This document shows, one piece after another, positions 42,377 through 64,000 of a DNA stretch of 64,000 nucleotides (its first letter is position 1; each line of letters begins with the position of its first letter). The notes under the pieces are model-generated. The model saw nothing but the letters and a program-made list of their open reading frames with translations. It was not told the origin of the DNA and searched no databases. Source of the stretch: Sedimentibacter saalensis (GTDB lineage Bacteria > Bacillota > Clostridia > Tissierellales > Sedimentibacteraceae); the NCBI RefSeq assembly GCF_007830175.1, contig NZ_VLKH01000002.1, positions 248,001 through 312,000 of the forward strand, given 5' to 3'. The position numbers were made by a program, and so were the translations under genes.

Positions 42377-42621
42377 AGATACTCCTCCGATATTTTTTAA
42401 CTATCTTTTAGTATTGCAACTGATATTTCATTTTTACTGTTGTTTGAAACTCTATAATTCTTATATAAAAACTATAACAGAATAAAAATTCAGTGTCAAC
42501 TTATGCCAATAAGCTTAAAACATTCAAACATTTAGAATAAATTTCTTAATATGCTTCATATGACCTTGCCTGCACTGACTTACCATTGATTACTTGTTAC
42601 ATTTACATTACAATTTTTATT

Positions 42622-42722
42622 GCCGAATCTCATAAAGAGTACCGGGGATAATATCGGGGTGAAGCCTATTAGGCGGGGTACCTCAACCCTAATCCGTCAA
42701 CTAACCTGGAAGGCTAAGGAGG
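42622..42722 (+). promoter_or_regulatory. c-di-AMP riboswitch (ydaO/yuaA type)
   Basis: The conserved landmarks occur in order: GAATCTCATAAAGAG, ACCGGGGATAATATCGGGGTGAAGC, and ATCCGTCAACTAACCTGGAA-GGCTAAGGAGG. This class usually turns off wall-hydrolase and potassium genes when c-di-AMP is high. Here its last bases are also the ribosome site of the SleB gene and no separate terminator is visible, so control may act on translation. Confidence 0.85.
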
Positions 42723-42727
42723 ATAAA

Positions 42728-43591
42728 ATGAAAAAAAATACTATCAAATCAATTCTATTGACCACCAGTCTTACTATTGGCATATCGTTTTCTGTATCAG
42801 GCGATGCATATGCAGCAACCTACAAAACTGTCAGCGGTGATTCACTTTACAAAATCAGCCGTCTTTTCAACACAACAGTAGGAAATTTAATGGATGACAA
42901 CAATCTTAGAAACTATAATTTGAGCATTGGACAAGAACTATACGTTCCCTGCCAAATTTATTCTGTTCAAAAAGGTGACACGCTGTATTTGATTTCCCAA
43001 AAATTTAATATTGAATTATCGGACTTGAGAAGAGCAAACAACATTTACACAAATTACATAGACATAGGACAAGTCCTTAACATTCCAAAGACATTTGCAA
43101 AGACTGCTGCAGAACCTGCAGCCCAGCAAAATCCTGCTCCGGCAGTAGTTCCAGTTGCAGAAACTCCAAATGCTGTAGTTCAACCAGTTGAAGCAGTTCC
43201 GGAGACTAAAGTTGAAACTGTCTCATATACAGCTGAAGACCTTGATATTTTGTCAAGATTGATTATGGCAGAAGCCCAGGGACAGCCTTACGAAGCTCAG
43301 GTTGCTGTTGGCGCTGTTGTAATGAACAGAGTCCAAAGCAATCTATGGCCAAACACAATAAAAGATGTGGTGTACCATTATATAGGCGGATATTACCAGT
43401 TCACACCAGTGCAAACTGGCTGGATCAATAACCCTGCAAACGCACAAGCCATACAGGCCGCAAAGGAAGCATTAAACGGAGCTGACCCCACAAACGGAGC
43501 CATGTTTTATTATGACAACACAACAACGAACCAGTGGATACTTTCAAAGCAAGTGGCTTTCAGGTCAGGAGCAATGATATACGCATACTAA
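42728..43591 (+). CDS. LysM cell-wall hydrolase of the SleB type
   Basis: A 287-aa exported protein. Residues 1-29 are a signal peptide (MKKNTIKSILLTTSLTIGI ... AYA). Two LysM domains follow (residues about 31-75, YKTVSGDSLYKISRLFN; and 78-120, YSVQKGDTLYLISQKFN). A Pro/Ala/Val linker leads to the SleB-type hydrolase (about 175-287), with the catalytic Glu in LSRLIMAEAQGQPYEAQVAV and NGAMFYYDN. It would cleave peptidoglycan, in sporulation-linked or general wall turnover. The ATG at 42728 follows AAGGAGG. The c-di-AMP riboswitch controls it. Confidence 0.93.
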   Translation: MKKNTIKSILLTTSLTIGISFSVSGDAYAATYKTVSGDSLYKISRLFNTTVGNLMDDNNLRNYNLSIGQELYVPCQIYSVQKGDTLYLISQKFNIELSDLRRANNIYTNYIDIGQVLNIPKTFAKTAAEPAAQQNPAPAVVPVAETPNAVVQPVEAVPETKVETVSYTAEDLDILSRLIMAEAQGQPYEAQVAVGAVVMNRVQSNLWPNTIKDVVYHYIGGYYQFTPVQTGWINNPANAQAIQAAKEALNGADPTNGAMFYYDNTTTNQWILSKQVAFRSGAMIYAY

Positions 43592-43655: not shown

Positions 43656-43949
43656 TTACTTAAATATTTCAAATCCGAAAACATCCAGGCTTTTAAAGAT
43701 TCCAAACAAACTGCTGAATCTGATATGAATGTAGTTTTCCTTGGGCATAAGATTTTTGGATAAATATATCTTAACCGCATCCTCATCATATAAATCAAAT
43801 CCATCTTTCATTACCGGTTCACCTAACCGTACTCTTGGAAGGGCTGCAGACGTTCATCCGCATCCGCTTTTAACTCTTTCAATTGTTACAGTACCGCCAT
43901 TTTTCATAATATGCTCCCTGGCCTTGGGGTCCAGAATTATATTTGCCAT
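43656..43949 (-). CDS. CC/Se-motif family selenoprotein (in-frame UGA at 43856-43854)
   Basis: Reading through one TGA gives a 97-aa HesB-like protein: MANIILDPKAREHIMKNGG, then VTIERVKSGCGU, then TSAALPRVRLGEPVMKDG and an ending FEIFK-stop at 43656. Sec is residue 32, next to Cys30 and Gly31, where this small clostridial family has a Cys/Sec pair. AGGAG precedes the ATG. A hairpin 30 bases past the UGA (43812-43831) could be the SECIS. The family role is unknown, perhaps thiol or Fe-S chemistry. A broken gene is possible, but flanking codons are fully conserved in character and no other damage is seen. Confidence 0.8.
43812..43831 (-). promoter_or_regulatory. Candidate bacterial SECIS hairpin
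   Basis: TACGGTT-AGGTG-AACC(G)GGTA-type fold: five pairs CGGTT/AACCG capped by AGGTG, extended by two pairs past a bulged G. The loop G residues lie 31-32 bases after the UGA, within the 16-37 base range known for bacterial SECIS elements. Confidence 0.6.
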
Positions 43950-44030
43950 AGTCCTCTCCTTGATAGATTATTATATTATACCAGACTTCTAGTAAGAGAA
44001 ACATACTGTCATACTGTGTTCATATAAGAT

Positions 44031-45864: not shown

Positions 45865-47334
45865 TTATGTTCCGCAATAAGTTTTATAACATTTGTTTTT
45901 TTCTTTTGGAAGTTCTGTGTATTCTAATTGATCATCTGTATATGCATATGGTTTTGAAAGAACATTTATTAATCTTTCCATTACACTGTAATCTCCATTA
46001 TTTACTGCTGCATTCAGTGCTTCTTCGACCCTGTGATTTCTTGGTATAACGGAAGGATTCGAGTTTTTCATAAGATCATTAGATTCATCAGTAATTTCCT
46101 TCTGTCTTGAGAGCCTTGACTTATATCTTTCAAGCCAGGTTGAAAAGTCTTTAGTTCCGGACATGGCTGTTTTCTCATATCTTTCAAGTGTCAACAATCT
46201 GAATGTATTTGTAAAATCGCCATGATATCTGTACATTATATCAAGGAGTTCATTGATCAGAGTTTCATCCTCTTTTTCTTCATTGAAAATTCCGAGCTTT
46301 GCCCGCATTCCTGTCAACCAGCTACTGTTGAAAATATTGCTGAATTCTTTTACTGCATCCGTTGCCATTATAACTGACTGTTCTTTATTTTCATGAATAA
46401 GAGGCAGCAATGTTTCTGCAAATCTTGAAAGGTTCCATTCTGCAATTCTAGGCTGATTGCCATACGCATATCGTCCATTTCTGTCAATGGAGCTGAATAC
46501 AGTTTCAGGATCATAGTCATCCATAAAAGCACAGGGACCGTAATCAATGGTTTCTCCGCTTATGGCCATGTTGTCCGTGTTCATAACACCATGTATGAAT
46601 CCTGTAAGCTGCCATTTTGAAATTAGCATTGCCTGACGTTTAATTACTTCTTTAAGAAAAGAAAGATATTTGTTGTCATCATTTTCTACAAAAGAATAAT
46701 GACGCTTTATTGAATAATCTGCAAGTGCTCTTAAATCATCAACTGTTCCCCAATTTGCAGCATATTGAAATGTACCAACCCGTATGTGGCTTAATGCAAC
46801 ACGCGTTAAAATTGCTCCTTCCAATGGAGAGTCACGATAAACTTTCTCTCCTGTTGTTACAACCGCAAGACTTCTTGTAGTTTCAATACCAAGAGCATGC
46901 ATTGCTTCGCTCATGATATACTCTCTGAGCATTGGACCAAGAGCTGCCCTGCCGTCTCCGTTTCTTGAGTATGGTGTTTCACCGGAACCCTTGAGCTGAA
47001 TATCTGTCCTTTCTGACCTTGGAGTGATGTGTTCTCCCAAAAGAACTGCGCGACCGTCTCCAAGCATTGTAAAATATCCGAACTGATGTCCTGCATAAGC
47101 CTGAGCAATAGGTGTTGATCCTTCAGGCAAAAGATTACCTGAAAAAATTTCTATTCCACTTTTGCTTCTGAGCATTGTTAAATCAAGTCCCAGAGATCTG
47201 GCCAGAGGATAATTAAGAACAACTAATTCAGGCGATTTTGACTGTGTTGGTTTTTGGTGAGTATAAAACTTCTCAGGCAAACGAGCATAACTATTGTCAA
47301 AATTCCATCCTGTTAATGTATTTCTGTCAGTCAT
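45865..47334 (-). CDS. selO: Protein adenylyltransferase SelO
   Basis: A 489-aa pseudokinase-fold enzyme of the YdiU/SelO family that transfers AMP to protein hydroxyls. Family motifs include [60 protein letters not shown] and [10 protein letters not shown]. The length fits. The end is [10 protein letters not shown]: Cys stands where animal SelO has Sec. AMPylation by SelO is tied to redox stress. The gene begins 26 bases after the arginase gene and in the same direction, so they may be co-transcribed. Confidence 0.93.
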
Positions 47335-62525: not shown

Positions 62526-62825
62526 TTATATATCAATATCCAGCAAGTATGAACTTAAGCTTTTTCCATGTTTATCCAAAGCAAGAGATCTGGTAACACC
62601 GCCCCCAAGAGCGTCATACATTACGAAATTCATTGCTCCTAACTGAGGCAGTTCATATCTTACAACTTCACCTTTGACAATTTCTTTGAACCATTGTTTT
62701 ACTACTTCCGGTGTGACTTTTTCCTTCAATAATTCATAGTCTTTTATATCATATGCTATAAGAGAAACATTTGAAATATTACCTTTATCCCCAGTTCTTG
62801 AATGTGCTATCTCCCATAACTTCAT
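62526..62825 (-). CDS. AtuA-like C-terminal domain protein (small subunit)
   Basis: A 99-aa protein matching the C-terminal ferredoxin-fold domain found in AtuA proteins, here as a separate gene: LWEIAHSRTGDKGNISNVSL, then VKQWFKEIVKGEVVRYELPQ and ALGGGVTRSLALDKHGKSLS. It overlaps the AtuA stop as TAATG with AGGAGG upstream and so is coupled to it. The two probably form one enzyme complex acting in acyclic-terpenoid or acyl-CoA type degradation, but the substrate is uncertain here. Confidence 0.88.
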   Translation of the reverse strand: MKLWEIAHSRTGDKGNISNVSLIAYDIKDYELLKEKVTPEVVKQWFKEIVKGEVVRYELPQLGAMNFVMYDALGGGVTRSLALDKHGKSLSSYLLDIDI

Positions 62826-64000
62826 TATAATACCTCCTTGTATATTACCTTAGCTTCTACATCATTTCTGTTAATCAATATTGAAGCCACCGATACAATT
62901 TCACTTACCGTCTTAGTGGCTCCGCCACCGCCTGCAGGTCCGTTTGTATACAATGTTTCAACCTCATTACCTATCTGGACTGCATCATACTTAGACTTAG
63001 TTCTGGCAGCAATTCTCAATCTTATTTCTTCCGGAGTATTATAAACTCTTCCTTGATTTTTATAAATGCTGTTTATTCCTATGAAATCTATTTTTATTTC
63101 GTCGTATTTTACATTTGTCAGCTCAAGTCTTTTTTCAACTATTTCTGCGGCAAGCTTTGCTCTTTCTAAGCATCCGGGTCCACCGTAAGATATTTCTCCT
63201 TCGCCTATGAAGCAATCCTTGTATCCCAGGCTGGCCTTCAATGTTTGAGGTTTTTCTCTGCCAGTTGCGCCCTTAACTTCAACAACATCTTTTGCTATGT
63301 CTTTAAATGTAACATTTGAGAAGTCAGCTATGCAGTCTGGAGTCAAATATTCTTTAGGATTGTGAATTTCATATATCATCTGCTCTATACAAGTGTCCTT
63401 GTTAACTACTCCGCCTGAGCCTTCAACTTTAGTGATGATAAAATCACCGTTCTCGTCTACCTCAACTAATGGAAATCCAAGCTCCCACAGCCTTTCAACA
63501 TTTTTTTTGCCTGGTTCCGCATAGTATCCGCCTGCCGACTGGCCTCCGCATTCAAGCAAATGACCTACCAGTGTACCCTTACCCATCAGATCATAGTTAT
63601 TTATATCCCAGCCGAATTCATATACCAGTGGTGCCAGAAACAATGCAGGGTCTGATACTCTTCCGGTTACAATAATGTCTGCTCCATTTTCAAGAGCTTC
63701 AACTATTCCATCTATGCCCATGTAGACGTTGGCAGAAACAACTTCGCCGTCCAGCTGAGAAAGTGGCCTGCCTGTCTCCCAAACTGTTGCATCCTGATAT
63801 TTATTAAGCTGATTGAAGAAATCATCGCCATAAACTCCTGCAACCTTTAATCCTTTCAGTCCTTTTTCTTCAGCCATTTTGCAGATTACATCAACTGCGC
63901 TCTGAGGATTGGCTGCGCCCATATTTGTAATTACTTTAATTTTATTTTTATATGCCAATGGTAGCACTTTATCCATTCTGTGTTCAAGAAGTCCATTATA
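62825..64000 (-). CDS. AtuA family (DUF1446) protein, 5' end beyond window
   Basis: At least 391 residues, open to the window edge (YNGLLEHR precedes the first internal Met, MDKVLPLAYKN). Family motifs: VITNMGAANPQSAVDVICKM, ADIIVTGRVSDPALFLAPLV, GHLLECGGQSAGGYYAEPGK, GGVVNKDTCIEQMIYEIHNP and the ending TNGPAGGGGATKTVSEIVS. AtuA acts in acyclic terpene catabolism in Pseudomonas; clostridial relatives have unknown roles. About 80 N-terminal residues are likely missing. It precedes and is coupled to the AtuA-like small subunit. Confidence 0.88.
   Translation of the reverse strand, partial: YNGLLEHRMDKVLPLAYKNKIKVITNMGAANPQSAVDVICKMAEEKGLKGLKVAGVYGDDFFNQLNKYQDATVWETGRPLSQLDGEVVSANVYMGIDGIVEALENGADIIVTGRVSDPALFLAPLVYEFGWDINNYDLMGKGTLVGHLLECGGQSAGGYYAEPGKKNVERLWELGFPLVEVDENGDFIITKVEGSGGVVNKDTCIEQMIYEIHNPKEYLTPDCIADFSNVTFKDIAKDVVEVKGATGREKPQTLKASLGYKDCFIGEGEISYGGPGCLERAKLAAEIVEKRLELTNVKYDEIKIDFIGINSIYKNQGRVYNTPEEIRLRIAARTKSKYDAVQIGNEVETLYTNGPAGGGGATKTVSEIVSVASILINRNDVEAKVIYKEVL

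Follow-up and report, generated by a model that had tools for sequence, protein, structure and literature searches.

A small gene of Sedimentibacter saalensis that seems to be broken by an in-frame TGA is very probably intact, a stand-alone gene that encodes a CC/Se motif family selenoprotein. It lies on the minus strand of the window, the whole 64,000-nucleotide stretch of DNA that was analysed, and its features are collected in Table 1. The reading frame, the family, the selenocysteine (Sec) machinery and the conservation of both the UGA and the hairpin codons behind it are established at the level of sequence. That the observation goes beyond chance is confirmed by the family match, the TGA kept in seven orthologues and the conserved hairpin codons.

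The gene and its family

The minus-strand frame runs from ATG to TAA with TGA as its single interruption. Translating through this codon gives, as the first-pass annotation had proposed, one protein with the motif SGCGU, in which a Cys stands two residues before the predicted Sec (U32). A terminator-like hairpin directly behind the stop codon is one of two found in the stretch against 0.1 expected, and it would also suit the gene that converges from the plus strand. The possible extended −10 element is not among the predictions of a promoter scan and is putative.

The neighbours of the selenoprotein gene, which stands alone, are a LysM/cell wall hydrolase gene that converges on it and a MASE3-SpoIIE gene. 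A c-di-AMP riboswitch of the ydaO/yuaA type (window 42611-42730, plus strand) precedes the former, and a gene for the protein adenylyltransferase SelO (45865-47334, minus strand), itself devoid of an in-frame TGA, lies two genes upstream.

Table 1. Features of the selenoprotein gene in the window
Feature	Coordinates	Strand	Basis
CC/Se motif family selenoprotein gene, 97 aa (predicted)	43656..43949	−	Read-through translation, NF041239 match, 7 orthologues
UGA codon, predicted Sec residue 32	43854..43856	−	TGA at same codon in 7/7 genus orthologues and a distant match
SECIS-like hairpin CGGTT-AGGTG-AACCG	43815..43829 (loop 43824..43820)	−	Scan; codon conservation
Ribosome-binding site AAGGAGAGG	43953..43961	−	Read from sequence; 3 nt before ATG
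Possible extended −10 element TGG-TATAAT, no clear −35	43975..43983	−	Read from sequence
Terminator-like hairpin directly behind stop codon	43619..43647	−	Scan of stretch

A model for the CC/Se (seleno)protein family, NF041239, is already present in the NCBI library. The window protein scores 56.9 bits against it (cut-off 40), with residues 4-91 aligned to positions 3-89 of 91, and resembles the family both in this whole-length match and in carrying Sec at the family's Cys/Sec place. By this match it is a further member of an already listed, functionally uncharacterised selenoprotein family, which the first-pass annotation had spotted correctly. Table 1 of a 2026 review (PMC13188914) lists NF041239 as the CC/Se motif family selenoprotein with a CxxU motif, citing two earlier studies, and the review describes it as a hypothetical protein predicted in Moorella thermoacetica. 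The window protein instead has C-x-U (GCGU) and departs from the CxxU spacing given in that table. The word Moorella is absent from the main texts of PMC2398784 and PMC5029168, and a full-text literature search found nothing pairing "CC Se motif" with selenoprotein.

Several other family links were tried and rejected. OS_HP2 reaches E 0.0009 with only 19.5 bits against a cut-off of 100, DUF1573 stays under its cut-off (E 0.024), an ErpA-related match has E 0.16, and two PHROGs of no assigned function have E 0.04 and 0.28.

Homologues of the family were aligned in 17 rows (alignment A1), 10 with a TGA and 7 TGA-free. Six of the seven TGA-free homologues have Cys aligned with U32 and the seventh has Gly; one of the 10 TGA rows (L026) carries its TGA two columns earlier. 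The same genome also holds a more distant CC/Se-like gene with an in-frame TGA (SFGGUGN) on contig C3 (L008, 1483-1752, minus strand), which scores 26.5 bits to NF041239, under the cut-off, and has a hairpin of 8-10 bp behind its TGA.

The hairpin behind the UGA

The first-pass annotation had placed a hairpin with an AGGTG loop 30 bases downstream of the UGA. Its presence, its SECIS-like form and its place hold up, the distance between UGA and loop being 29 nt, but the weight laid on it was too great. The stem has 5 bp and the loop 5 nt, with G at the second loop place. The model in Figure 2 of PMC13188914 allows a loop of 3-9 nt, a stem of 4-16 bp and a UGA distance of 16-37 nt, with a G at one of the first two loop positions and a free energy of at most −7.5 kcal/mol. 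The hairpin falls within these limits for loop, stem, G and distance, and 13% of the window's TGAs equal it.

That figure comes from a scan for stems of at least 5 bp, suitably spaced from a TGA and closed by an N(0-1)G[G/T] loop. On both strands together, 345 of the 2684 window TGAs had a hairpin as good, and 710 did once a G at either of the first two loop positions sufficed. The scan finds long hairpins for selD and for the contig C3 paralogue. One of the two GrdA genes passes it (5 bp, 3-nt loop) and the other fails (5 bp, no G[G/T] loop), which together with the window count makes the scan neither specific nor fully sensitive. The hairpin is thereby ruled out as proof by itself. The open frame is no rarity either: 113 window ORFs run for at least 31 codons before a TGA stop, and in nine of them at least 65 open codons follow. 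The case for the selenoprotein is therefore carried by neither the open frame nor the hairpin.

The folding energy is ordinary as well, with z scores against shuffled sequences of +1.5, +0.2 and −0.4 for three stretches. The energy is −7.8 kcal/mol for 67 nt and −3.6 for the 15-nt hairpin alone, values on either side of the model's −7.5 threshold. Lowest-energy folds of the 67 nt that follow the UGA contain the hairpin in four of the seven orthologues and lack it in L019, L020 and L021, and no Rfam family matched at the hairpin.

Codon conservation is more telling. The five hairpin codons, CGG-TTA-GGT-GAA-CCG, are kept in 7, 6, 7, 7 and 6 of the seven orthologues, respectively. The exception is L021, with TTC and CCT, where the stem loses its C-G pair at the foot and could gain one at the top. 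Two of the codons are uncommon in the 31 stop-free window stretches of at least 250 codons that served as reference, where CGG encodes 1.9% of the Arg residues and CCG 11% of the Pro residues. Among pairs of orthologues with the same residue, the codon is identical in 93 of 99 cases within the hairpin versus 409 of 633 in the rest of the coding sequence that follows the UGA. This conservation is not unique, since the five-codon windows from +20 and +21 reach 58 identical pairs of 58, and three of the 30 other conserved columns likewise keep to a single minor codon. Neither the five hairpin codons nor CGG at that place occurs in any of the seven TGA-free homologues or the three distant TGA forms; the nearest to the set outside the orthologues is L025, with three codons in common.

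Selenocysteine machinery, conservation of the UGA and alternative readings

The first-pass annotation had proposed a check for selA, selB, selC and selD and had named a genome devoid of Sec machinery as the finding that would speak against it. The genome has selD, which carries its own in-frame TGA, selA and selB side by side, and a tRNA-Sec with anticodon TCA. It also has two genes for GrdA of glycine reductase with TGA, one of them on the window's own contig, a location that matters because the contamination of the assembly is estimated at 6.5%.

Counting the window's own genome, seven of the 25 genus genomes have an orthologue; all seven orthologues carry the TGA at the same codon and come from genomes with selA. 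The other six share 84, 78, 54, 55, 46 and 41% identity with the window protein, and the one in G022 ends two residues earlier, at TAA. The TGA likewise stands at the Sec place in all six loci of a scan of named genomes, which comprise three from Sedimentibacter (S. acidaminivorans DSM 24004 among them), two from Firmicutes MAGs and a distant match in Dethiosulfatarculus sandiegensis. Across the genus orthologues the motif reads GCGU, CCTU, GRCU or GSSU, the U being invariant and the partner Cys variable; in the GSSU of S. acidaminivorans the partner is gone. After the TGA, dN/dS lies between 0.12 and 0.88 in all 21 orthologue pairs, values that rest on small numbers and are partly saturated. 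The machinery and the TGA kept in every genus orthologue thus back the proposal that this UGA is read as Sec.

The surroundings of the orthologues have no constant neighbour across loci L039-L043, and operon context gives no function. L039 and L040 have the same neighbours as the window gene, L041 has only the homoserine dehydrogenase gene beside the orthologue, in L042 the adjoining genes are homologues of window 62526-63976, and in L043, the locus of S. acidaminivorans DSM 24004, an smpB homologue lies about 3 kb away.

A pseudogene or an assembly error, in either case an ordinary Cys gene carrying a nonsense codon, is very unlikely. The frequency of equally open frames and of comparable hairpins in the window would fit it, as would a Cys paralogue (57.9 bits) on contig C7 of the same genome, but neither decay nor error explains why the same TGA is kept in seven orthologues with identities down to 41% and why conservation continues behind it.

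Improbable to the same degree is the reading of the UGA as a true stop, or as a codon read through by something other than Sec, with a 31-aa piece as the product. The ordinary energy of the hairpin is compatible with such a stop; the Sec machinery of the genome, the Cys at the Sec place of most TGA-free homologues and the protein-level constraint behind the UGA all speak against it. So does the company of selB. In a survey of 199 genomes from the order, a family match (E ≤ 1e-5) turned up in 98, and selB (E ≤ 1e-60) is present in 53 of the 55 that have a TGA-bearing match versus 20 of the 43 whose matches are all TGA-free (Fisher p ~1e-8, with kinship ignored and a TGA counted wherever it lay in the match). 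In the two exceptions at this threshold, G022 and G054, one end of the selA match is no more than 5 bases from a contig's first base. A true stop explains neither this co-occurrence nor the conservation of the TGA and of the hairpin codons among the orthologues. In the same survey, five genomes (G098, G181, G186, G192 and G194) have two TGA-bearing family members within a few hundred bases of each other, which suggests tandem copies in several genomes of the order.

The opposite-strand ORF anticipated in the first-pass annotation does exist and is open in the window (83 aa, 43741-43992, plus strand), but that it is the real gene is scarcely credible, as all six relatives have at least one internal stop in it (L018 only at codon 9, near the start) and the family match belongs to the minus-strand protein.

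In the selenoprotein reading, SelB would attach to the hairpin, with its loop 29 nt downstream of the UGA, and the tRNA-Sec that it delivers would decode the UGA as Sec.

Fold and possible function

The window protein probably has the fold of the IscA/SufA-like A-type carriers, as judged from an AlphaFold2 model built on a 7-row alignment (mean pLDDT 82.6, pTM 0.72). The ten best Foldseek matches, with E from 0.003 to 0.13, comprise chains of SufA, IscA, 1nwb from Aquifex, HI1723, DsrR and an ODPA-YNER modelled complex, and none reaches E ≤ 0.001. SufA and IscA are the best of them (probability 1.00, E 0.003-0.01, TM-score about 0.6); 1nwb, HI1723 and YneR are of the same fold. In the alignments of both MAFFT and hhalign, residue 32 falls opposite Cys35 of E. 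coli IscA, and in this model Sec would occupy the place of that cluster ligand.

The likeness to IscA, SufA and ErpA (PF01521), a weak one, lies in the modelled structure and in the position of residue 32. In sequence the window protein differs from them: profile comparison by hhalign with IscA/SufA/ErpA is not significant (2.6%), the Pfam family Fe-S_biosyn is touched by two of the 17 rows of alignment A1 at E ≤ 1 (best 3.4e-5), and a sequence search of solved structures found no relative (best E 0.21). The C-terminal CxC segment of the carriers is also absent, and the protein is therefore not filed as an A-type Fe-S carrier. The HesB-like selenoproteins (TIGR01911) are likewise small Sec proteins and presumably share its fold, and TIGR01911 gave no match to the window protein at E ≤ 1.

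The genome has three TGA-bearing genes that match PF01521 weakly, one of which exceeds the cut-off. Two are adjoining small HesB/IscA-like genes on contig C3 (L047, 1489-2062, plus strand), both interrupted by an in-frame TGA, in the contexts FSUCG and VGUNR; the first alone passes the cut-off. The third, on contig C16 (L049, 1333-1869, minus strand), has its TGA (SSAGUGTP) behind an apparent lipoprotein signal, so its product would be an exported selenoprotein.

The likeliest role of the window protein, speculative and at roughly even odds, is in selenol/thiol redox chemistry and not in carrying clusters. A bolder reading, tentative and rather unlikely, makes the CC/Se family a selenium-using offshoot of the A-type carriers that lost the CxC and bears Sec at the sole remaining ligand Cys. 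Because the partner Cys drifts and is missing in S. acidaminivorans, this Sec would act alone. If that were true, the lone Sec would be a selenol nucleophile or would bind a metal or cluster as its single selenium ligand.

Significance

A gene that looks broken can thus be seen as whole from the raw sequence, in a host genome that would use selenium in several proteins. Of use to specialists are a very short SECIS-like hairpin whose codons are conserved across proteins with identities to the window protein as low as 41%, and an invariant predicted Sec beside a partner Cys that drifts. A further point is a testable link in fold between an uncharacterised selenoprotein family and IscA/SufA.
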